Assembly: GCA_022842785.1 (NCBI GenBank)
Contig: JALHOW010000004.1
Location: 464,387-528,386, forward strand
Length of the DNA stretch: 64,000 nt
Source of the DNA: Hyphomicrobiaceae bacterium
GTDB taxonomy: Bacteria > Pseudomonadota > Alphaproteobacteria > Rhizobiales > Hyphomicrobiaceae
Direction: 5' to 3'
This document shows, piece by piece, positions 8,034 to 31,252 of this stretch (the stretch's first letter is position 1; each line of letters begins with the position of its first letter). The translations under genes were made by a program, and so were the position numbers. A model generated the notes under the pieces. The model saw only the letters and a program-made list of their open reading frames with translations, had not been told where the DNA came from and searched no databases.

Positions 8034-8846
8034 TCACAACGCCGCCAGCTTGTTGTTCAGGCGATCGGTAATGAGCATCGAACCCGGCTTGTGCGTGATG
8101 CAGAGCGACGGCCGGGCATTGAGAACGACGGATTGAGGCGTGACCCCGCAGGCCCAGAATACGGGGAGCATCCCCTTCTCGACAATGGGTGGCGGATCGC
8201 CATAGTCGGGCGACATCAGATCCTTGACGCCGATCGCTTCGGGAATGCCGATGTGGACGGGCGCCCCGTGCACCGCTGGAAAGCGGGACGTGACCTGGAT
8301 GGCGCGGATCGCATCCGTCGGCGTCATCATGCGCATCGATACGATCATCTTGCCGCTGAACGGCCCAGCCGGCACACAATCGATCGACGTGCGGTACATG
8401 GGCACGACCGTATCGTGTTGGATATGGTGGAGCGGGATGCCCTCCTCGATCAGCGGCTGCTCGAACGAAAAGGAGCAGCCGAGAACGAACGACACGAGAT
8501 CATCGGTCCAGTATCCGCGGATGTCCGTCGGCTCGTCGATGCACGCGCCGTCCTTGAAGACCCGGTAGCGCGGCACGTCGGTGCGAATGTCGATGTCGCC
8601 AAGGTCGGGCAGCGCGGGATCGCCGACCGCGCTCATGCCGATCACGGGGCAGGGCTTCGGATTGCGCTGGCAGAAGGCCGCGAAGTCGGTGGCGTAGGCC
8701 TTCGGCAGAATACAGAGATTGCCCTGGACGTAGCCGGGCGCCTGACCTGCCGTGTGGCCGGTGAGATCGCCCGCACGGCAGCGCAACCGCGCTACATGCG
8801 ACGGCAACGCATTCAGCTCGCCCGCGCTCGCAGGTCGATCCTGCAT
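8034..8846 (-). CDS. DUF1445 family protein (putative hydro-lyase / D-glutamate cyclase-like)
   Basis: 270 aa from ATG 8846, chosen because GGGGAGG lies 6 nt upstream; the track start at 8945 adds 33 poorly matching residues. The family signature is clear: [19 protein letters not shown] near the N-terminus, [12 protein letters not shown], and [10 protein letters not shown], and the end CGVTPQSVV. The family includes YcsI and the mammalian mitochondrial D-glutamate cyclase, which makes 5-oxo-D-proline from D-glutamate. Its place at the head of an operon with a TRAP carrier and an oxoprolinase fits a role in D-glutamate or 5-oxoproline metabolism, but that is inference. It starts about 280 bp from the divergent amidohydrolase gene. 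Confidence 0.85.
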
Positions 8847-20384: not shown

Positions 20385-20825
20385 TTACGTGCAGCCGGAG
20401 AACCCATCGGCCGTCATCTTGGCCTCATAGGGCTGCGTGACGGCACTGCCGACGGTCAGCCCTGGCTTCACCGCATCCCAGTCCTGCGGTTTCAGGATGA
20501 TGAACCAGCCCTTTTCATACGGGTCACTGTTGGCAAGAGCTGGGTCGGCGACGAGCGCATCGTTGATCGCTACGACCTCGCCGGCCGCCGCGGATTTCGC
20601 GGGGCCGACCCACTTGCCGCTCTCGACGGTCGCGCAGCTCTTACCCGCATCGACCTTGCGCCCGACCTTCTTCGGCGTGAAAGCCACGAGCTGCCCCGCC
20701 ATCGCGGTCGCGACCGTCGTCATACCTACCTTCACGGTGCCGTCGCCCTGCTCCTGAAACCAGATGTGGTTATCCACGTCGTAGAGCAGGTGATCAGGGA
20801 GGTTGCAGCCATTCACGACGGGCAT
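20385..20825 (-). CDS. lbpA: Lipoate-binding protein LbpA (GcvH-like)
   Basis: 146 aa, GcvH-like. The lipoyl site is retained as ATVESGK (K71) followed by GEVVAINDAL, instead of the usual ESVKA of glycine cleavage H-protein. It starts MPVVNGCNLPDHLLYDVDNHIWFQ. No other glycine cleavage gene is near; it lies at the end of the sHdr cluster, exactly where LbpA is expected. LbpA carries lipoate that takes part in Hdr-like sulfur oxidation in the cytoplasm. Assignment rests on both sequence and context. Confidence 0.9.
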   Translation of the reverse strand: MPVVNGCNLPDHLLYDVDNHIWFQEQGDGTVKVGMTTVATAMAGQLVAFTPKKVGRKVDAGKSCATVESGKWVGPAKSAAAGEVVAINDALVADPALANSDPYEKGWFIILKPQDWDAVKPGLTVGSAVTQPYEAKMTADGFSGCT

Positions 20826-20891: not shown

Positions 20892-21332
20892 TCAGTGCCC
20901 GACAGCGCGGAGCGGACGCGAGGAACAGCAGAATTCACCGAGCCCGGCAACCTCTAGCTTGCCGCCGACGAAGAGCAGGAGATGACGCGCGATCATGGCC
21001 GCGAGCGTCAGGCGGTGCCCCGTGTCTGGATGATCCGGCTCGAGTGCAAGCAGGTTGTAGTGATACACGAGCTCGCGGCAGGTCTCGCGGCAGGCGTTGA
21101 AGGACGGCTCTCCGCGCGCGCCCTGACGATGCAGCGCAAGCAAGCGAAAGCCCTCCTTGCGCGCGTCCGTCGGCGTCTCCCCACGCGCACGCACCCAGGA
21201 TTCGAGGACGTGCTCTCCGATAGCAAGCAGCTCCGCGGCGGCCCGCACCGGCTCCGAACCGCCGTCCACGGCAATCGCGTCGATACGATCCTCGATGCCG
21301 GCAAATGCCGGATATGCCGCCTGGCCACTCAT
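20892..21332 (-). CDS. Conserved hypothetical protein in sHdr operon
   Basis: 146 aa; I do not recognise the family. Predicted mostly helical, cytoplasmic, without signal or membrane segments. It has a CRETC motif (FNACRETCRELVYHYNLLALEP) and a GEFCCSSRPL C-terminal cysteine pair, so it could bind a metal or take part in thiol chemistry. Its start overlaps the stop of the upstream methyltransferase gene (ATGA), so translation of the two is probably coupled. It sits 66 bp upstream of lbpA in the same operon. Confidence 0.75.
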   Translation of the reverse strand: MSGQAAYPAFAGIEDRIDAIAVDGGSEPVRAAAELLAIGEHVLESWVRARGETPTDARKEGFRLLALHRQGARGEPSFNACRETCRELVYHYNLLALEPDHPDTGHRLTLAAMIARHLLLFVGGKLEVAGLGEFCCSSRPLRAVGH

Positions 21333-21976
21333 GCCGCCCTCCGTGCCGCAACGCGCACGACATGCGCCCGACCCTGATGCCGGGAGCCCTCGTCGAGGGG
21401 AACTTCCTCCTCGCGAATAAGATCGAACGCCGCACCTTCCAGATCCTGCCGCAGGAGCTCGGTCGTGTACAGCATCTCGGGTGGCGGCCCACCGCGACTG
21501 CCAGCCTTGCGATTCTCGACATGCTTCGGCGTGAACGCCTCCAGCAGTAGAATGCCACCCGGCTTCAGCGCCGCCAACATGCGCCGATGCATTATCGAGC
21601 GCGCATGCGGCTCGAAATGCACGAAGATAGCGGCCACGCCATCAAAGGCCGCTACCGGCCAGTCCCAGCAGTCCAGGTTAGTGTTCTGAATGTCGATGCG
21701 CGCATCGCGCTCGGCGGCCAGGGCGCGCGCCTTCTCGACGCCAACGGCCGAGGCTTCGACGCTCGTCACATCGAAGCCTTGCTCAGCCAGCCACACGCCA
21801 TTGCGGCCCTCACCATCACCCGGCACGAGAATACGCCCCTTCGGTGTGAAGCGATGCACCTCGGTAGCTAGGAATAAATTCGGCTTGGTGCCGAAAATGT
21901 AGCACGACTCGGCGTACTGGCGGTCCCACTTGGGGGCTGTCACCGTATCACGCGCCGCTGTGTCGCCACTCATCAT
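21329..21976 (-). CDS. SAM-dependent methyltransferase (TehB/thiopurine-type)
   Basis: 215 aa from ATG 21976, whose ATGA overlaps the hdrB2 stop; the long track ORF is a readthrough of the shadow frame upstream. The class I fold is visible: GRILVPGDGEGRNGVWLAEQGFDVTSVEAS (SAM loop), DCWDWPVAAFDGVAAIFVHFE, and LKPGGILLLEAFTPKH. Similar proteins methylate tellurite, selenium or thiols. Translational coupling to hdrB2 suggests a sulfur-related substrate, perhaps a volatile or toxic thiol, but this is inference. Confidence 0.85.
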   Translation of the reverse strand: MMSGDTAARDTVTAPKWDRQYAESCYIFGTKPNLFLATEVHRFTPKGRILVPGDGEGRNGVWLAEQGFDVTSVEASAVGVEKARALAAERDARIDIQNTNLDCWDWPVAAFDGVAAIFVHFEPHARSIMHRRMLAALKPGGILLLEAFTPKHVENRKAGSRGGPPPEMLYTTELLRQDLEGAAFDLIREEEVPLDEGSRHQGRAHVVRVAARRAA

Positions 21977-22917
21977 GTCAGGCGCTTCTCGATGATGAGA
22001 TCCATCGAATCCGAGATGTTCGTGTGGATGCCGAGAGCGCGTGGACCAATGCCGAGCGCGAGCCCCAAGAGCTGCGTGAAGTAGAGCACTTTCACGTTCG
22101 TCTTCTTGCCGAAGCGCTTCTCGGCACGCACCTGATGCATCTCGAGGCCTGTGTGGCAGGTCGGGCATTCCGTGGCGATGACCTCGGCACCAGATGCTTC
22201 CGCCGCCTGCAGGATGTTCAGCACGAGCTTCGTCGAGGTATCGCTGTCGGAGAGCGTATGCGCGCCACCGCAGCAGGCGGTCTTCAGCGGAAAGCTCACG
22301 TTCTCGGCGCCGGCCGCAGCCAGCAGATCGTCCATGAAATGCGGTTGGCTGGTCGATTCCGAACCCGGTCCCTTGTCCTTCTCTGGGAAGATGTGGCGCG
22401 GTCGCACGTACATGCAGCCGTAGTAGTTCGCGATCTTCAGCCCCGCGAGCTTGCCATTCGTACGCTCGCGCAGACCGTCCTCGCCGATAGCTTCCTTGAG
22501 CCAATCGAGCGCGTGAATCGTCTCGGCCTCACCCGCCTTGTAGGCTTTGTGGCCGGCCTTCGCGCTCAGCTTGTCGACGACCTCGACGGATTTCGGATCA
22601 TGCGCGAGATCGTACTCGGCCTTCTTGAGATTGTGATAGCAGCCGTTGCACGGCGCCATGACGACGTCCATGCGATCCTCGTTCACGGCCTGCGAGAGCA
22701 CGCGTGCGGAAAGATACGTCTGGATCTTGGGATCGACGTTCTTGACCTCCATGGCGCCGCAGCAGTTCCAGTTCGAAACATCACGCAGGCCGAGCCCGAG
22801 CTTTTTCGCAATGGCGCGCGTCGAGACGTCATAGCCGTTGCCTGTGCCTTCGAGCGCGCAACCGGGATAGTAGCCGACGCTACGGTACTTCTTGGCCTTG
22901 TCGGTCACATCGACCAT
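21973..22917 (-). CDS. hdrB2: sHdrB2, CCG-domain subunit of Hdr-like complex
   Basis: 314 aa from ATG 22917 (MVDVTDKAKKYRSVGYYPGC). Two cysteine-rich CCG domains: the first is C20-x31-CC(52,53)-x36-C90-x2-C93; the second includes YYGCMYVRP, KTACCGGAH and ATECPTCHTG. In HdrB these bind noncubane iron-sulfur clusters that cleave the disulfide; in sHdr they form the sulfur-oxidising site. It starts 4 bp after the DUF3303 gene stop and overlaps the methyltransferase start. Confidence 0.92.
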   Translation of the reverse strand: MVDVTDKAKKYRSVGYYPGCALEGTGNGYDVSTRAIAKKLGLGLRDVSNWNCCGAMEVKNVDPKIQTYLSARVLSQAVNEDRMDVVMAPCNGCYHNLKKAEYDLAHDPKSVEVVDKLSAKAGHKAYKAGEAETIHALDWLKEAIGEDGLRERTNGKLAGLKIANYYGCMYVRPRHIFPEKDKGPGSESTSQPHFMDDLLAAAGAENVSFPLKTACCGGAHTLSDSDTSTKLVLNILQAAEASGAEVIATECPTCHTGLEMHQVRAEKRFGKKTNVKVLYFTQLLGLALGIGPRALGIHTNISDSMDLIIEKRLT

Positions 22918-23211: not shown

Positions 23212-23982
23212 TCACTCCGCCGCTTCACGCATGGGTGCCTGCTGGGGCTTGCCCTTGCCGTCGATGACGGCCTTTCTCTCGGCTTCCACTTCGTGGATGT
23301 AGTCCTCGAGCGCGACGCGCGCGCGATCCCAGCCGCGCGTCTTTGGTTTGAAGATCTGCGCCCACGCCATTTTGATCCCCCATTTTACCGGGAGCCGCTT
23401 GCCGATCGCGAAAGCGATGGCCGTAAGCCAGTCCTGCATAAGCGGCTGCTTCGTCTTGCGCAGGAAATTGTGCAGGACTTCCGTATCCTCGATGCGCCCG
23501 CGCTGGACGATCTGGCGGGTAAACTCCTCGTCGAAAATGTGCGAGGGCGAGGGCGGCGTGTAACCCTTCATCGTCAGCCAATGGGCCGTGGCCTTCATGA
23601 CGCCTTCGGGCTCGACATCGCGCGGGCAGACGTGCGTGCACTTGTGGCATGACACGCACTGCCAGATGATGTCCTTGTCGCGGAGAAGCTCGCTCTCCAT
23701 GCCCGTGCGGATCAGGTAAATCCAATAGCGCGGATTAAAACGAGGCTCGATGGCATTCACGGTGCAGGCATTCGTGCAGGAGCCGCACTGCCAGCAGCGG
23801 TGGATCTTGTCGGCGCCCGGCATGGCGGCGATCTCGTCCTCGAGGTTCTCGTTGTAGTCGGTGACGACGCGCGACTCGATGAAGGTCGACCAGTGCCCTG
23901 AAACGTCGATGCCCTCAATGACGAGATTCTCATGCGTCTTCAGATTCTCCGGCCGGATCAGCGATTTCTCGTGAATGGGCAT
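23212..23982 (-). CDS. hdrC2: sHdrC2, iron-sulfur subunit of Hdr-like complex
   Basis: 256 aa. Two [4Fe-4S] binding motifs: CWQCGSCTNAC (C63, 66, 69, 73) and CVSCHKCTHVCP (C109, 112, 115, 119). The first lacks the usual proline after the fourth cysteine. Electron-transfer subunit between the flavoprotein HdrA and the catalytic HdrB subunits; cytoplasmic or membrane-associated through the complex. It begins 10 bp after the hdrH stop. Confidence 0.93.
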   Translation of the reverse strand: MPIHEKSLIRPENLKTHENLVIEGIDVSGHWSTFIESRVVTDYNENLEDEIAAMPGADKIHRCWQCGSCTNACTVNAIEPRFNPRYWIYLIRTGMESELLRDKDIIWQCVSCHKCTHVCPRDVEPEGVMKATAHWLTMKGYTPPSPSHIFDEEFTRQIVQRGRIEDTEVLHNFLRKTKQPLMQDWLTAIAFAIGKRLPVKWGIKMAWAQIFKPKTRGWDRARVALEDYIHEVEAERKAVIDGKGKPQQAPMREAAE

Positions 23983-23992
23983 CAGTGCGGCC

Positions 23993-24859
23993 TCAATTCA
24001 ACTGCTTGAGCGCGTCGAGCGCATGAGCATCGCCCTTGATCGCGCTGCGGCCGCGCCGCTTGGCGATACGGTCGAGGCCGAGAATGCGGCGCGTGTGCTC
24101 CAGCGGATCGCTCTCAGCGGAGAAATCCGTCTTCAGGTAGGCGCCGCCCTGCGCATTGATGTAGTCGCCATAGATCTGCGCTTGCAGCAGATCCACGTAC
24201 CAGAGCATGTCGCGGAAAATGCCGTTGTCCGACAGGAACTGCGACAGCTCCTCGCGCAGGACCAGAAAAGTGTCATGGCCGTCCGGAATATCGAGAACAA
24301 TGTGATCGACGTCGTCGCCCGATGCCGGATCATGCCAAATCTCGCGTAGCACGCCGGTATTCGCCCGCGCATCCCATACCCAGCGATGCATGAGCGGATA
24401 GTGCTCGGGGTAGACGCCGTGCAGCAGCTCGGACGCTAGATCGCGCACGAAGCGGTTGGCCTTATCTTCGGGGAAAGACTTCACGAAGTTGGCAATGCGC
24501 GCGTCACCCGTGTCGGGCATGTGCGCATCGGTGAGCAGCATCGCGATCGCCTCGCGGACATGCGTCCAGCCGGCCGTGTCAACGAGACCCGCAATCCGGC
24601 GACGAACCGTCGCCATGAGGATCGCGATGTCCTCGAAAGCCTCGCGCTCGATCGTGGCCGCCTTGCCATTGGCTAAGCGATCCTGCATCACATCGGACTT
24701 GAGTTTCACGGCAGCGGCGAAGCGCTCGATGCCGCCGATGGGTTCGGCAGCGCGGATCAACGCCTCCAATGCCAGTCGCAGTTTCGCCCCGGAGAGATGC
24801 AGCACCGGGCGCACAACGGGCGCGCCATCCACCGTGCTGTCTCGATAGCTCACCGCCAT
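23993..24859 (-). CDS. sHdr-cluster conserved hypothetical protein (HdrH-like)
   Basis: 288 aa from ATG 24859, which shares one base with the osmC stop (TGATG). No cofactor motif is evident; it is a soluble, helix-rich protein with few cysteines (none seen in the main body). Hyp proteins of this size lie between hdrA and hdrC2 in sHdr clusters, and this gene occupies that slot, hence the HdrH-like label. The label rests on position, with the sequence match judged only from memory. Confidence 0.75.
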   Translation of the reverse strand: MAVSYRDSTVDGAPVVRPVLHLSGAKLRLALEALIRAAEPIGGIERFAAAVKLKSDVMQDRLANGKAATIEREAFEDIAILMATVRRRIAGLVDTAGWTHVREAIAMLLTDAHMPDTGDARIANFVKSFPEDKANRFVRDLASELLHGVYPEHYPLMHRWVWDARANTGVLREIWHDPASGDDVDHIVLDIPDGHDTFLVLREELSQFLSDNGIFRDMLWYVDLLQAQIYGDYINAQGGAYLKTDFSAESDPLEHTRRILGLDRIAKRRGRSAIKGDAHALDALKQLN

Positions 24860-25251
24860 CACACCACCAGCTCACTACGCTCGACGCTCATGGGCTTCGC
24901 CAGCGCCTTGTGCACGGGACAGGCCGTCGCGACGCGCAGCAGGCGCTCGCGGATATCCGGCGTGAGATCGCTCGCGCCGAAGTCGATGTCATAGCGGAGC
25001 ACGGGCGAATCGGCGCGCGACTGGTCGTACTTCACGCGCACTTCGAGGTCCGGCAGCGCCCAGCCATGCCGGTCGGCGTACATGCGGATGGTCATCGCGA
25101 CACACGTCGCGAGCGATGCCTCCAGAAGCGCAAAAGGCTTGAAACCCGCTTCGCGTCCGCCATCAGCCGCGATCGCATCGGCAAGCGCCGCGTGCTTACC
25201 GTCGCTGAACTCGACGGCAAAGGGCTCGGCTTGGTTGCGCGTCACGATCAT
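24859..25251 (-). CDS. OsmC family protein
   Basis: 130 aa. The OsmC pattern is present: an ALLEASLATCVAMTIRMYADRHGW helix with one catalytic cysteine, and the second cysteine in ATACPVHKAL. OsmC-type proteins reduce organic hydroperoxides or react with persulfides and thiols through this cysteine pair. It lies between hdrA (11 bp) and hdrH (1-bp overlap), so it is a true member of the operon. It may handle peroxide or persulfide by-products of sulfur oxidation. Confidence 0.88.
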   Translation of the reverse strand: MIVTRNQAEPFAVEFSDGKHAALADAIAADGGREAGFKPFALLEASLATCVAMTIRMYADRHGWALPDLEVRVKYDQSRADSPVLRYDIDFGASDLTPDIRERLLRVATACPVHKALAKPMSVERSELVV

Positions 25252-25262
25252 CGGAGCGTTCC

Positions 25263-26315
25263 CTACTCCGCCGCTTCGAGAATGCGCCCTTCGGCGGCTG
25301 CGAGCGCCGAAAGTGCGGCGCCGTTTGCCTGCGCGATGGAGTCGTCGATCGTCTCGGGCCCAATGGCGGCGCCGGCGACGAACACACCCGGCCGCGAGGT
25401 CGCTCCCATGGTGCCGTACGTGTCCTTGCGCGCGATGTAGCCGTGCTTGTGCAGTTCGACGTCGAACACTGCCGAAATCGTCATGTTGTCGATGTTCGGA
25501 TCCATGCCGATGGCGTGCACGACCATATCGAAGGGGATGGTGATCGGCCGCTTCACGAGCGTGTCCTCACCCTTGACGATGAGTTGCTTTCCGTCACCCG
25601 TCACCTCGGCGATGCGCGCCTTGATGTACTTGACCTTGAACTCCTCCTGGCTGCGCCAGTAGTAGTCCGTCTCGTAGTGGCCGTAGGTGCGGATATCCAT
25701 GTAATAGATGTAGACGTGGCAATCCGGCAGTTCCTCACGGATTTCCATGGCGAGGTTCGCTGACACCGTGCAGCAGATTTTCGAGCACCATTCGCGGCCG
25801 ATCTGGCGATCACGCGAGCCGACACAGAGCAGGATCGCGACGCGTTTCGGCTTGCGGCCATCCGAGGGGCACTTGACGCCCTGCCCGGACGAGATCATCT
25901 GCTCCACCTGCGTCGTCGTCACCACATCCGGGAAAAGGCCGAAGCCCCATTCGGGCTTGTTGATGCTGTCGAAGTGCGTGAAGCCGGTCGTGAGCAGAGC
26001 GGCACCCGCTTCGACGCGACTGCCGTCCGAAAGCTCCGCGACGAAGTTGCCGGGCGTGCCGGAGAACTTCGCGACGGTTGTGCCGAGCTTGCGCGTGACG
26101 CTCGGATTGCTCTCGACGCGTGCGACCATGCTGCCGATCGCATCTTTCGCCCAGCGACCAGAAGGGACAAGCTTGGCATAACCTGAATGAATCGGAGCGC
26201 CGCCGAGGATCGACGTCTTCTCGACCAACACCGATGGGCGACCAACGGTCGACAGGGCGTGTGCTGCCGCGAGGCCCGCCGGCCCACCGCCGACGATGAG
26301 AATGGGCTTGGACAT
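25263..26315 (-). CDS. hdrA: sHdrA, FAD subunit of Hdr-like complex
   Basis: 350 aa from ATG 26315 (MSKPILIVGGGPAGLAAAHAL). The dinucleotide fold GGGPAG lies at residues 9-14; the central LCVGSRDRQIGREWCSKICC bears the conserved HdrA cysteines; the C-terminal GVFVAGAAIGPETIDDSIAQANG closes the FAD domain. It is much shorter than methanogen HdrA, as is typical for the sHdr type. It splits or channels electrons from sulfur oxidation toward NAD or another acceptor. It starts 2 bp after the lysE-type gene stop. Confidence 0.93.
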   Translation of the reverse strand: MSKPILIVGGGPAGLAAAHALSTVGRPSVLVEKTSILGGAPIHSGYAKLVPSGRWAKDAIGSMVARVESNPSVTRKLGTTVAKFSGTPGNFVAELSDGSRVEAGAALLTTGFTHFDSINKPEWGFGLFPDVVTTTQVEQMISSGQGVKCPSDGRKPKRVAILLCVGSRDRQIGREWCSKICCTVSANLAMEIREELPDCHVYIYYMDIRTYGHYETDYYWRSQEEFKVKYIKARIAEVTGDGKQLIVKGEDTLVKRPITIPFDMVVHAIGMDPNIDNMTISAVFDVELHKHGYIARKDTYGTMGATSRPGVFVAGAAIGPETIDDSIAQANGAALSALAAAEGRILEAAE

Positions 26316-26317
26316 AC

Positions 26318-26956
26318 TCAAAGGCTCCGCTGCAGGAAGGCCAGTCTGATGCCGAGAAGCACAAAGAGCCCGCCGAGCACGCGCTCCATCCACGTGCGTA
26401 CCGCGCTGCCGGCACCGAGCACGCTCGCGGCGCGGGCAGTGAACCACGCGATCAGCAAGCACACGGCTGTGCCCGTCGCCACGAAGACCAGGCCAAGGAC
26501 GATGAAGGCCAGTGCCTTCGAAGGTGCTCCCGCCGAGATGAACTGCGGCAGGAAGGCGAGGAAGAACAGCGCCACCTTCGGATTCAGCGCGTTCGTGAGG
26601 AAGCCTTGCAGGAAAATCCCGCGCAGCGAGATCGCAGCCTTGCCATTGCCACTGCCCCCGCCGCTCGTGCCTGCGTGGCGGAGCAGCGAGATGCCGACCC
26701 ACACGAGATAAGCCGCACCGACGAGCTTAAGAATGAAGAAAGCTTCGGCCGACGTCGCGAGAATTGCGGATAGGCCGAGCGCCGCCGCCGCAATGTGCAC
26801 GAAGCAGCCCGCGCTGATGCCGAGCGCCGCGACCGCACCCGCGCGTGCACCGAGCTGCGCACTGCGCCCCATGATGAAAGCCATGTCCGGACCGGGCGTG
26901 ATATTGAGCAGGAGCCCCGCGATCACGAACAGCCAGAGATCGGTAATGCCGAGCAT
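26318..26956 (-). CDS. LysE/RhtB-family exporter inserted in sHdr operon
   Basis: 212 aa with about six hydrophobic segments. Family marks: LLNITPGPDMAFIMGRSAQLGARAG near the N-terminus and FLTNALNPKVALFFLAFLPQF in the middle. LysE/RhtB proteins export amino acids or other small metabolites. It is wedged between hdrB1 (3 bp) and hdrA (2 bp), an unusual insertion that suggests export of a product or toxic intermediate linked to sulfur metabolism, for instance a sulfur amino acid. That role is inference. Confidence 0.88.
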   Translation of the reverse strand: MLGITDLWLFVIAGLLLNITPGPDMAFIMGRSAQLGARAGAVAALGISAGCFVHIAAAALGLSAILATSAEAFFILKLVGAAYLVWVGISLLRHAGTSGGGSGNGKAAISLRGIFLQGFLTNALNPKVALFFLAFLPQFISAGAPSKALAFIVLGLVFVATGTAVCLLIAWFTARAASVLGAGSAVRTWMERVLGGLFVLLGIRLAFLQRSL

Positions 26957-26959
26957 GGA

Positions 26960-28348
26960 CTATTCTCCCGGCGGCGGAGGAATGACCTCGCGCTTGATCG
27001 GCTTGAAGCCCGGTCCCGATGTGATCCTGAGACGCGGATCGTAAAGCTGATCGGCGGCACCGGTTTTGATCTTCTCGAGGTACTGCTCGAACTCGGCCTT
27101 CTTGGCCTGCCAGTCGATGCCGAGCTTTTCGAGCAGCCGCTCGATCGGGCTCGCGTGCCAGTGCGTCTGCACGATCTTGTAGGGATCGGCGCCGCAAACG
27201 AGCGCGGCGAACTGACAGTCGGCGAGCACGGGCAGCTCGTAGGGCTTGCCGGCTGCGCGACCGATCCACTGGTTCTTGTCGAGCGTGGTGATGCAGCCCG
27301 TATCATGACCGATCATGACATCGGCGTTCGCCTCCTCGACAGCGACCTTGATCTTGCGGTCGATGGCGAACGAGCGCGTGAACTCCCGCTCGGAAATGAT
27401 GTGGCGGAAGCCGAAGCCGCAACAGTCGTACCACGTCTTGTAATCGATGACGTTGGCGCCGAGCCGCTGGATGAGGCCCGTCGAGACCGCCACGCGGTTC
27501 CCTTCGAGGATCTCGTCGTCGTAGATCGCGTCCTCCGGCACCATCTTGTAGACGTGGCAGGCCGGATGGATCGTCGCGCGTACGGCCGAGGCATCGATCG
27601 TCTGATGGTCGGCGATGCGGTGGCGCATGACGTGCAGCCACTCCGAGTAGTGCACGACCTCCTCGGGGATCAGCAGCTTTCCGTCGACGAGACGGCCGAG
27701 CTTCGCCAGGATCTTCGTCACGCTCTCGCGCAGCTTGGCTGAGTGCATGAGATAGGCGCGCACTTCCTTGTAGTTGCCGAAGGACGTGCCGCAGTGCACG
27801 AGCGGATAGTAGTAGCCCTCGGGCAGTCCCTGCGCCTTCGCCGACACGTACGCCTGATGGAAGTTGCGCAGGAAGACGGCGGCGAGGCTCTCGATATTGC
27901 CGATGCCGGAGCCGTGGTAGTTCCAGGCCGTGCATGAGGTCTGGTCGGTCTCGTCGAGATAGCTCGTGCCGAGCTTGTTCTGCAGCCAGAGCAGCGAGAC
28001 GGGATAGCCCGGGATGTTCCCGCACTGGCCGCAGCTCTTGTGGTGCCAGAGCTGCGTCGTCGGAATGCGCTTCGTCCAGCCGTAGAGCGTCTTGACCTCG
28101 ATCGGCTCGTGCTGGTCCGTGATGCGGTGGACCTTGATCTGGCCCTCTTTCTCGAGCTGCCACATGATATCGCGCACGTCCTCGACGCGATCCTTGTTGG
28201 TCAGCATGGAGCGGCGGTCGATGCGCTGCTCGACCCAGGCGGTGGCCGTTGCGGCTTCGCTTGAAGAGAGATTGGCGGGCTTCCACTCGGGACCGTGGCC
28301 CGTGAAGCGCTCGCCGTTCTGCGGTGGGCGATGCGTGGGATCGCTCAT
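26960..28348 (-). CDS. hdrB1: sHdrB1, CCG-type subunit of Hdr-like complex
   Basis: 462 aa. Cysteines are spread in CCG-like segments: KSCGQCGNIPGYPVS, PLVHCGTSFGN, HPACHVYK, WYDCCGFGFRH, GHDTGCITTLD and LADCQFAALVCGADP. The DCCGFGFRH segment is a degenerate CCG motif. It is longer than a plain HdrB, with a roughly 90-residue N-terminal extension of unknown role that has no cysteines. Its start overlaps the VOC gene stop (ATGA), so translation is probably coupled. Paired with hdrC1 upstream. Confidence 0.9.
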   Translation of the reverse strand: MSDPTHRPPQNGERFTGHGPEWKPANLSSSEAATATAWVEQRIDRRSMLTNKDRVEDVRDIMWQLEKEGQIKVHRITDQHEPIEVKTLYGWTKRIPTTQLWHHKSCGQCGNIPGYPVSLLWLQNKLGTSYLDETDQTSCTAWNYHGSGIGNIESLAAVFLRNFHQAYVSAKAQGLPEGYYYPLVHCGTSFGNYKEVRAYLMHSAKLRESVTKILAKLGRLVDGKLLIPEEVVHYSEWLHVMRHRIADHQTIDASAVRATIHPACHVYKMVPEDAIYDDEILEGNRVAVSTGLIQRLGANVIDYKTWYDCCGFGFRHIISEREFTRSFAIDRKIKVAVEEANADVMIGHDTGCITTLDKNQWIGRAAGKPYELPVLADCQFAALVCGADPYKIVQTHWHASPIERLLEKLGIDWQAKKAEFEQYLEKIKTGAADQLYDPRLRITSGPGFKPIKREVIPPPPGE

Positions 28349-28872
28349 GAGGTCTTCCTCCCGCGTGCGGGTTTCGCTTTCGGCTTCGACTTCGACGTGT
28401 CTGGGGTAGTGCCCGCCATCATGGCATCCAGGCGCTTCTGCATTTTCTTCGGGGATACATCCTCGATGTGCGTCTGGATCATCCAGACATGGCCGAACGG
28501 ATCCTCGACCTGCCCTGAGCGGAAGCCATAGAACTCATCTTGCACCGGTCGTTTCAGCGTGGCGCCGGCGGCAACCGCACGCGCAGCCACCGCATCGGCG
28601 TCAGAGACGGCCAGGCACATCGTCACCGTCGTGCCACCGAGCGCCTTCGGGCCGACGATGGCCATCTCCGGAAACTCGTCCGATAGCATGATGCAGGTGT
28701 CGCCGAAGTCGAGCTCCGCATGGCCGATACGATCGCCCATCGTCAGACGATACCGCTCCTTCGCATCGAAGGCCTTCGCATAGAAGTCAATGGCCGCAGC
28801 CGCGTCGCGCACGCGCAGATAGGGCACGGCATCACTGTAACCCTTGGTTGGCTTGTACTTGACCTTGCTCAT
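28345..28872 (-). CDS. VOC-fold (glyoxalase/PhnB-like) protein
   Basis: 175 aa. The fold is recognisable from SDAVPYLRVRDAAAAIDFYAKAFDAKERYRL, GHAELDFGDTCIMLSDEFPE and GQVEDPFGHVWMIQTHIEDVSPKKMQKR, the last typical of PhnB-like VOC proteins. The C-terminal tail is Lys/Pro rich (SKSKPKAKPARGRK). VOC proteins range from glyoxalases to resistance proteins. It lies between hdrC1 and hdrB1 and overlaps the latter by 4 bp. Confidence 0.87.
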   Translation of the reverse strand: MSKVKYKPTKGYSDAVPYLRVRDAAAAIDFYAKAFDAKERYRLTMGDRIGHAELDFGDTCIMLSDEFPEMAIVGPKALGGTTVTMCLAVSDADAVAARAVAAGATLKRPVQDEFYGFRSGQVEDPFGHVWMIQTHIEDVSPKKMQKRLDAMMAGTTPDTSKSKPKAKPARGRKTS

Positions 28873-28916: not shown

Positions 28917-29675
28917 TCAGTCATCGTCGTCGGCGTCCTCCTGGTCCTCGAGGAAGTCATTCCAGTCTTCGCGCTTCTCTTCCATGATGTCAGTGATGAC
29001 ATCGAAGAGATTCTCGTCAATGCCCTCGAGCTGGTCGAGAACACCGGTCATCTCCCAGATCGTGTAGAGCTCGACCGAGGTCTTGAGATTGACCTCCCAG
29101 GCGGTCTCCGTCGTGTTGAGCGTCGCCATGGGAATGGCCTTGCGCAGCAGCTTCAGCGGCGCATTGACCTTTGTGAGGTTCGGTCCCCAGTCGGCGAAGT
29201 GCTGGGGATTGATCATGTCGGGGGCGAGCTGATTGCCCGTCGAGATGAGCTTGAGCATGACGCGGCTGAAGGGACGCAGCACGTCCTTCGCGGATTGCAT
29301 CTGATGCTTGATCGCCACTTCGCGCATGAGCATGACGAGCCCACCTGGCGAATTGCGGAAGGGGCAGCGCGCGGCGCAGGTGTAGCATTGCGCACAGGAC
29401 CAGATCTTTTCCTGCATGGCATCGTAGATGCCCTCAAGGTTCTCGGTCCAAAGGAGCTGCACGATCTCGCGCGGCGAGAAATCGTAGTAGTGCGCAGCAG
29501 GGCAGGTCGCGGTGCAGATGCCGCAGTTGAGGCAGCCATGCAGCTCATGATCGTAGCGCATGTCCTCCTGCAGATCGCGGAAGATGGCTTCGAGCTTGGC
29601 ACGCGGCACCGGCGGCTTGTCCGAAATCGGATCACCGATGAAGTCCTGCACGCGTGTCGCCGTCGCCTCAGCCAT
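28917..29675 (-). CDS. hdrC1: sHdrC1, iron-sulfur subunit of Hdr-like complex
   Basis: 252 aa with two [4Fe-4S] motifs: CLNCGICTATCP (C48 to C58) and CAQCYTCAARCP (C94 to C104). The C-terminus is very acidic (EEKREDWNDFLEDQEDADDDD). It transfers electrons between HdrA and HdrB1. It begins 10 bp after the dsrE stop, and together they head the operon. Confidence 0.93.
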   Translation of the reverse strand: MAEATATRVQDFIGDPISDKPPVPRAKLEAIFRDLQEDMRYDHELHGCLNCGICTATCPAAHYYDFSPREIVQLLWTENLEGIYDAMQEKIWSCAQCYTCAARCPFRNSPGGLVMLMREVAIKHQMQSAKDVLRPFSRVMLKLISTGNQLAPDMINPQHFADWGPNLTKVNAPLKLLRKAIPMATLNTTETAWEVNLKTSVELYTIWEMTGVLDQLEGIDENLFDVITDIMEEKREDWNDFLEDQEDADDDD

Positions 29676-29685
29676 GGCTTGCGCC

Positions 29686-30066
29686 TCAGTAGCTCAGCAC
29701 CTTGGTGTCTTCGCCTTCCATGACCTCCTCGATGAGGTAGGCGCCGCCGACAATGCCAGAGCATTCCGGAATCAGGTCATCCTGTTTCATGTCGAAGAGA
29801 TCGAGGTTCGGCGAGCAGCAGAAAAATTTCACGCCCGCCTCGTGCGCATCCTTGATGAAGTCGTAGACGCTCTTCGGGCTGCCGGGCTTCACGACGAGCG
29901 CCTCGGCGACACCCTTCTTCATGAGGCGGCCGGCGGTCGCGGTGCAGATGACCTCGACCTCGTAATCCATGGCAGCGGCCACAGAGGCCTGGAAGATCGG
30001 CGCACCGAGCTCCTCGCCGTTGCGCGGATCCGTGTTCGCCATGATGATCACGAGCTTCTTGGCCAT
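29686..30066 (-). CDS. DsrE-family sulfurtransferase of sHdr cluster
   Basis: 126 aa from ATG 30066, preceded by GGGAGG with 6 nt spacing; the 300-aa track ORF extends upstream through the promoter region and is not real. The DsrE fold is clear (MAKKLVIIMANTDPRNGEELGAPIFQASVAAAMDYEVEVIC). Two adjacent cysteines, C83 and C84 (KFFCCSPNLDLF), mark the sulfur-carrying site, as in the DsrE3C-type proteins of sHdr clusters. It should pass sulfane sulfur to the Hdr-like complex. First gene of the operon. Confidence 0.9.
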   Translation of the reverse strand: MAKKLVIIMANTDPRNGEELGAPIFQASVAAAMDYEVEVICTATAGRLMKKGVAEALVVKPGSPKSVYDFIKDAHEAGVKFFCCSPNLDLFDMKQDDLIPECSGIVGGAYLIEEVMEGEDTKVLSY

Positions 30067-30207
30067 GCCGTGCCTCCCGGTGGCTTGGACGCGGGCAGGC
30101 GCCCGTGCCGCGCTGCCAGTTCGTGCCCATCGCCCAGCCGCAACTGCATGGCAGCTTGTCGGCGGGACGGCTTGGGGCGCGCTTCCTTGTTTGAGCAGCC
30201 TGGAATC

Positions 30208-30236
30208 CTTATACAGTGGCGCCCGCAAAGCGGCAA
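30208..30236 (-). promoter_or_regulatory. Sigma70-type promoter of the sHdr operon
   Basis: On the minus strand TTGCCG (30236-30231) and TATAAG (30213-30208) are separated by exactly 17 nt. Both boxes match the housekeeping consensus in four or five of six positions. Transcription would begin near 30200, giving a leader of about 130 nt before dsrE. Confidence 0.65.
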
Positions 30237-30242
30237 CCGAAC

Positions 30243-30258
30243 ATTCGCATGTGTGAAT
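30243..30258. promoter_or_regulatory. ATTC-N8-GAAT operator candidate (ArsR-type persulfide sensor)
   Basis: ATTCGCATGTGTGAAT fits ATTC-N8-GAAT exactly, the site described for SqrR/BigR/YgaV-type ArsR regulators that sense persulfides and control sulfur genes. It lies 6 bp upstream of the -35 box of the sHdr promoter. No ArsR gene is in this window, so the regulator must be encoded outside it. Confidence 0.6.
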
Positions 30259-30325: not shown

Positions 30326-31252
30326 ATGTCGGCTGAGACCGCGGCGTCGCCGGATGAGCGCGGACGCATCGTCTGGGCCGTCGTTTGGATGCTCGGGGCC
30401 ATCGTCTCGTTCACCGCGATGGCCGTTGCCGGGCGGGCTGCCGCGCAGGGCGTCGATGCCCTGCAGATCGCGGTCTGGCGCACGTTTGTTGGCGTCTCGA
30501 TCCTGATCGTGATCGTCATGGCGCGAGGTATTCCCTTCGGCAGCCTTGTCTCGAAACGCCCCGATCTCCAGATCGTTCGCAATCTCATTCACTTCACCGC
30601 GCAGTTCTGCTGGCTCTATGCCCTGACGCGCATGACGCTCGCCGAGCTGACGACGTTGGAGTTCACAGCTCCGCTATGGGTGGCGCTGCTCGCGCCTTTC
30701 CTGCTGGGTGAGCGCCTGACTACGCTGCGGCTAGCGGCGGTTGTGCTCGGCTTCGTTGGCGTGCTCATTGTCGTGCGCCCAGGCGTCATTTCGCTGAGTG
30801 AAGGCGCACCCTTCGCGCTCGCGGCGGCGCTTGGATACGCGTTCTCCATGATCATGACGAAACGGCTCCTGCGAGGAGACAACGCGTTCACGATCCTCTT
30901 CTGGATGCAGGGCCTGCAGGTTCTGATCGGTCTCGCGATCGTGTTGGCGGGCCCTCTGTTCGGCTACGACAAGGGGCTCGTCATTCCGGATGCCGTCACG
31001 TTCGCCTGGATCGTGGTCGTTGGCGTACTGGGGCTTACCGCGCACTACGCGCTCGCCACCGCATTCACCTATGGCGATACGATCATCGTCGCGCCGCTGG
31101 ACTTCCTGCGCCTGCCGCTGATTGCCGTCGTCGGCGTCATGCTCTATGCGGAGCCTCTCGACTTCTGGGTGCTCGGCGGGGGGCTTATCGTCGTGCTCGC
31201 CAATCTCCTGAACATCCGCGGCGAGCGCCGGCGTCATGCAAACCCAGCCTGA
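30326..31252 (+). CDS. EamA-family (DMT) transporter, copy 1
   Basis: 308 aa, ten hydrophobic segments in two EamA repeats. Characteristic stretches are ALTRMTLAELTTLEFTAPLWVALLAPFLLGERLT in the first half and DTIIVAPLDFLRLPLIAVVGVMLYAEPLD in the second. Drug/metabolite exporter of unknown substrate. It is divergent from the sHdr operon and shares its control region, so it may answer to the same regulator. Followed by a paralogue 18 bp downstream. Confidence 0.9.
   Translation: MSAETAASPDERGRIVWAVVWMLGAIVSFTAMAVAGRAAAQGVDALQIAVWRTFVGVSILIVIVMARGIPFGSLVSKRPDLQIVRNLIHFTAQFCWLYALTRMTLAELTTLEFTAPLWVALLAPFLLGERLTTLRLAAVVLGFVGVLIVVRPGVISLSEGAPFALAAALGYAFSMIMTKRLLRGDNAFTILFWMQGLQVLIGLAIVLAGPLFGYDKGLVIPDAVTFAWIVVVGVLGLTAHYALATAFTYGDTIIVAPLDFLRLPLIAVVGVMLYAEPLDFWVLGGGLIVVLANLLNIRGERRRHANPA

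Follow-up and report, generated by a model that had tools for sequence, protein, structure and literature searches.

In Hyphomicrobium denitrificans, the shdr-sox genes lie in one island with two regulators, SoxR and sHdrR. SoxR binds DNA in vitro and loses this binding with polysulfide (PMC10451225), and the bridging of two cysteines by sulfur has been shown for SoxR (PMC10451225) and is supported by mutants for sHdrR (PMC12423496). Cells that lack sHdrR transcribe soxT1A, lipS1, shdrA and shdrB2 constitutively (PMC12423496), and in EMSA both SoxR and sHdrR bind four probes, with a fifth unbound (PMC10451225, PMC12423496). No operator consensus is printed in the open-access main texts of these papers, and a published one may exist, for example in the repeats figure of PMC12423496. 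The genes for sHdrR-like regulators with the two cysteines are seldom neighbors of shdr genes (PMC12423496), which raises the question of how these regulators find their targets. Two further systems, Rhodobacter capsulatus SqrR and E. coli YgaV, are associated with ATTC-N8-GAAT sites (PMC9774250), and a third, BigR, is an ArsR persulfide sensor of the BigR/Blh operon.

The locus described here lies in a 64,000-nucleotide stretch of a Hyphomicrobiaceae genome (the window). Like the shdr-sox system of H. denitrificans (PMC10451225, PMC12423496), it has an orthologous regulator with C50 and C116, and soxT, lipS1 and shdr are its predicted targets. Unlike that system, we found one regulator, on another contig, and soxT, lipS1, lipS2 and lplA are dispersed with an operator each, while no site was found at the sox genes that were inspected. 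The half-sites and their spacing are those of SqrR and YgaV (PMC9774250), and SqrR is the best structural match, but the regulator belongs to the sister sHdrR clade and its regulon would serve the sHdr-lipoate pathway and not the detoxification or respiration of sulfide. The sensor type is shared with BigR, and a Blh-type dioxygenase gene also carries a site here; in contrast to the BigR/Blh operon, this blh lies away from the regulator gene, other genus members do not consistently keep its site, and a tree separates the regulator from BigR. The kind of switch is already known, and what is new here is that an operator is defined for regulators of the sHdrR clade and that the arrangement is dispersed under a single regulator.

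Candidate operator, promoter and operon at dsrE

The palindrome ATTC-N8-GAAT is present upstream of dsrE as ATTCACACATGCGAAT on the minus strand (30243..30258, reading from 30258 to 30243), and we consider it a candidate sHdrR operator. A −35 element, TTGCCG (30231..30236, minus strand), lies 6 nt downstream and is followed after a 17-nt spacer by a −10 element, TATAAG (30208..30213, minus strand). The original prediction had described this arrangement, reading toward dsrE-shdr, and it is exact in the sequence. Approximately 140 nt separate TATAAG from the ATG of dsrE (30066), and transcription of the operon probably starts near 30200. A simple sigma-70 scan of the window did not list this promoter because TATAAG lacks the final T that the scan rules require. 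The leader that would result (approximately 135 nt, 30067-30200) contains the genus-conserved blocks ATTCCAGGCTGC, ACAAGGAAG and AGCTGCCATGC.

The motif by itself is not significant because its counts are at chance level: the window contains one match, with 0.89 expected per 64 kb, and the 5 Mb genome contains 36, most of them within genes. The significance of the operator comes from comparison among relatives, rather than from motif count. Homologues of dsrE are encoded in 49 of 103 family genomes, and the upstream regions of 29 were read. The exact 8/8 operator was found at 14 loci, representing 14 Hyphomicrobiaceae genomes and eight genera, at which dsrE heads an shdr operon; hdrC1 follows dsrE at 13 of them, and the last (L040), which we count as probable, is on a contig that ends before hdrC1 could appear. 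None of the 15 dsrE homologues without hdrC1 whose upstream regions were read has the operator. When the 14 sequences were aligned on the operator, both half-sites were invariant and every row contained TTG at +6 and TA after the 17-nt spacer, while the flank upstream of the operator was at background, with a mean of 5.8/14 agreeing bases. An unbiased test of 256 half-sites at 15 spacings (3,840 combinations) ranked ATTC-N8-GAAT at the top, with occurrence in 8/8 genera and 3/8 for the runner-up. Judged from these sequence comparisons, the operator is conserved beyond chance upstream of dsrE (14/14 loci, 8/8 genera and 0/15 controls). The Fisher p-values of about 1e-9 and 1e-8 overstate independence because the genomes compared are related.

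A divergent gene for an EamA transporter (30326..31252, plus strand; PF00892) lies on the other side of the operator, and it had been proposed that this side could be co-controlled. This idea is unsupported, as the block that is invariant at the level of the genus extends from the operator to the dsrE side and not to the EamA side. Furthermore, the gene upstream of the site in several other genera, G040 among them, is a co-directional lipX.

By gene order and domain content, dsrE is the first gene of a type I sHdr operon that extends down to 20385 on the minus strand, with the syntenic shdrC1B1A-hyp-C2B2 and lbpA of such clusters, as determined by comparison with G040. The DsrE3-type sulfurtransferase gene dsrE (29686..30066; PF13686 and PF02635), with a start backed by orthologues, is followed by shdrC1 (28917..29675), which encodes an HdrC-like protein with Fer4 domains and 87-92% identity to relatives. 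Next are shdrB1 (26960..28348; HdrB-like, CCG domain), shdrA (25263..26315; HdrA-like, Pyr_redox_2, start MSKPILIVGGG) and the 'hyp' gene (23993..24862), which has no Pfam match and corresponds in position and sequence to the G040 gene at 717719-718567. The genes shdrC2 (23212..23982; Fer4 domains) and shdrB2 (21973..22917) also match G040, the latter in sequence and order, as does the order of a small gene (20892..21332) between shdrB2 and lbpA. The lipoate-binding protein gene lbpA (20385..20825) encodes MPVV.GCNLPD.LLYDVDNHIWFQEQ as in G040. Three further minus-strand genes are inserted among the shdr genes: a glyoxalase-family gene between shdrC1 and shdrB1 (28345..28872; PF00903), a LysE-family transporter gene (26318..26956; PF01810) and an OsmC-family gene (24859..25251; PF02566). 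These inserts are also present in L131, from the same genus, and are absent from G040.

The candidate regulator

A search of the window's genome with HTH_5 (PF01022) returned ten ArsR candidates, and only one, encoded on the minus strand of contig C3 (176354-176728), has the SqrR pattern. The remaining ArsR proteins were ruled out as the sensor, with the SqrR pattern missing, and a search of the genome at E<=1e-8 found no other protein of the SqrR type. The best PDB match of the candidate is R. capsulatus SqrR (6o8l set, E 1e-19), and the two cysteines align between them. Numbered from the methionine of MSMDALAK, these cysteines are C50 and C116, the same positions as in sHdrR of H. denitrificans (PMC12423496); an ArsR gene with two conserved cysteines, as originally anticipated for this genome, is indeed encoded. 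In a phylogenetic tree, the protein joins 22 family proteins with support of 100/99, including G040_L076 at the sHdrR position, and this clade lies apart from SqrR and SoxR; BigR is also separate, with a long branch. With G040 presumed to be the H. denitrificans reference, the tree specifically places the regulator as an orthologue of sHdrR and not of SqrR or BigR. The original prediction of an operator for a SqrR/BigR/YgaV-type ArsR sensor is therefore upheld with respect to operator and sensor and revised with respect to the identity of the regulator.

Orthologues of sHdrR (at least 56% identity) are encoded in 23 family genomes, comprising 13 of the 14 that bear the operator and only 10 of the 89 others. 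The orthologue lies 6-10 kb from dsrE in G003, G010, G040 and G052. In the remaining operator-bearing genome (G016), for which the assembly is 85% complete, a close orthologue was not found and only a 40% homologue is present. The window's genome encodes the regulator on contig C3 and the operon on contig C4, and we did not treat this non-adjacency as defining because such regulators have been found to be rarely adjacent to shdr genes (PMC12423496). On contig C3, the arsR gene (L087, ~8352-8777) is flanked on one side by genes for cytochrome c maturation and on the other by a gene for a small cytochrome c.

We used G040 (one contig, 3,638,969 bp) as an anchor to the published binding data, taking it as H. 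denitrificans from the gene order of its shdr-sox island and its 173-bp lipX-dsrE gap, which is the size of the published probe. The upstream geometry of dsrE in G040, within the lipX-dsrE3C probe region, has the same operator and promoter spacing as the window. Among the bound probe regions, lipX-dsrE3C and shdrR-lipS1 contain 8/8 sites and soxT1A-shdrR and soxA-soxY contain 7/8 sites, while the unbound control region has no site and a best score of 5/8. We give weight only to the pair of 8/8 probes because chance alone would produce a 7/8 site in 9-21% of regions of this kind, compared with 0.5-1.5% for an 8/8 site.

Copies of the candidate operator at other genes

A scan of the genome for further ATTC-N8-GAAT sites, as had been suggested, revealed copies in front of sulfur genes with a linked function. 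Intergenic copies that match exactly lie ahead of soxT (Sulf_transp, YeeE/SoxT-like), lipS1 and lipS2 (LipS1-like and LipS2-like radical-SAM genes), a lipoate ligase gene (lplA) and the Blh-type dioxygenase gene, with LipS1, LipS2 and Blh assigned as best matches that fall below curated NCBIfam cut-offs. Exact matches to the extended form TATTC-N8-GAATA number three in the whole genome and lie in front of lipS1, lplA and soxT. A handful of further sites scored as intergenic have neighbors with no evident sulfur role, and the 20 second-tier sites with one mismatch to TATTC-N8-GAATA, nearly all within genes, added no new sulfur target. The sHdrR gene itself is preceded by a 7/8 site, TATTG-N8-GAATA, approximately 70 nt upstream in 4/5 genus members.

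Conservation differs among these sites. The soxT operator is present in 5/5 genus members and also in G102 and G003. Those of lipS2 and lpl are present in 3/3 genus genomes tested, in which the genes are dispersed; outside the genus the operator is found in 0/7 and 0/8 genomes, respectively, and the coordinates place the genes mostly downstream of lipS1 or lipS2. It is fairly likely that one unlinked sHdrR governs a dispersed regulon in the genus, in which lipS1, lipS2 and lpl, which form an operon in other genera, have been split up and each have their own operator copy. Another genus member, G024, retains arsR and the operator-bearing soxT, and dsrE, lipS1, lipS2 and lpl were not found; the pathway genes seem to have been lost together. 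Conservation of the blh operator within the genus is incomplete, as 2/4 members whose upstream sequence could be read have it. Directly downstream of the operator-bearing blh is a class D beta-lactamase-like gene (L089:598-1416, contig C2; NF012161, 271 bits, cut-off 250).

No ATTC-N8-GAAT site at >=7/8 was found within 1.5 kb of either soxY or in the wider context of the sox genes, and the genome accordingly shows no operator upstream of sox genes of the kind that would mark SoxR. The two operator-free soxY loci are at G000:C1:392524 and C2:218122, and one of them is beside a flavoprotein gene that resembles flavocytochrome c sulfide dehydrogenase.

A proposed switch and competing explanations

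We assign a probability of about 0.87 to a model in which the palindrome is the sHdrR operator, with sHdrR repressing dsrE-shdr-lbpA and the scattered units until persulfidation releases it. Without a sulfur substrate, an sHdrR dimer would occupy the operator beside the −35 element and block transcription of dsrE-shdr-lbpA. On entry of sulfane sulfur into the cell, a sulfur bridge would form between C50 and C116 and sHdrR would leave, which would permit transcription of the operon; we infer this derepression by sulfane sulfur from the work in H. denitrificans (PMC10451225, PMC12423496). Through the same operator, sHdrR may also control the sulfur importer gene soxT and the genes lipS1, lipS2 and lipoate ligase, which would assemble the cofactor for LbpA. 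It may control its own gene through the 7/8 site, and perhaps the Blh-type persulfide dioxygenase gene as well.

A chance motif beside a chance promoter would fit the motif counts, with 0.89 matches expected per window and most of the 36 genomic matches within genes, but it would not account for 14/14 conservation with fixed spacing while the flanks diverge, or for the copies in front of five further units with roles in or related to sulfur oxidation, and we give it practically no credence. It is also unlikely that the conserved operator belongs to another transcription factor, or to sHdrR plus another regulator, instead of sHdrR alone. The binding of SoxR to the same probes in H. denitrificans (PMC10451225) and the operator of G016, which lacks a close sHdrR orthologue, are consistent with that possibility, but the operator co-occurs with sHdrR orthologues (13/14 versus 10/89), the motif is identical to the site deduced for SqrR (PMC9774250), and one SqrR-type protein was found in the genome at E<=1e-8. 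A different question is the direction of control. The operator is centered near −50, just upstream of the −35 element, where activators can sit, and sHdrR might bind there as an activator or an HlyU-like anti-repressor that switches the genes on. The constitutive transcription of soxT1A, lipS1, shdrA and shdrB2 in H. denitrificans without sHdrR (PMC12423496), together with the same dsrE geometry in G040, argues against positive control, which we consider very improbable.

If sHdrR is the repressor, one unlinked sensor could control the whole scattered set of pathway genes via a shared site, and the operator that marks each dispersed unit would provide an answer to how such regulators find their targets. 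The conserved operator also offers a way to predict sulfur-oxidation regulons where gene neighborhood fails, and it specifies the exact bases for mutation.

A scan of named genomes yielded 80 shdr loci, which add only controls because the 11 family loci with the dsrE site repeat genomes already counted among the 14. A Fisher test on the 80-locus split was discarded, as its grouping was arbitrary. Among approximately 60 other loci with readable upstream sequence, the exact site was found in one (L204). Many shdr operons outside the family have a different ArsR gene (35-48% identity) approximately 6.7 kb downstream; L150, L151, L156, L167, L192 and others lack this operator and carry such a gene at that distance downstream of shdrC1.
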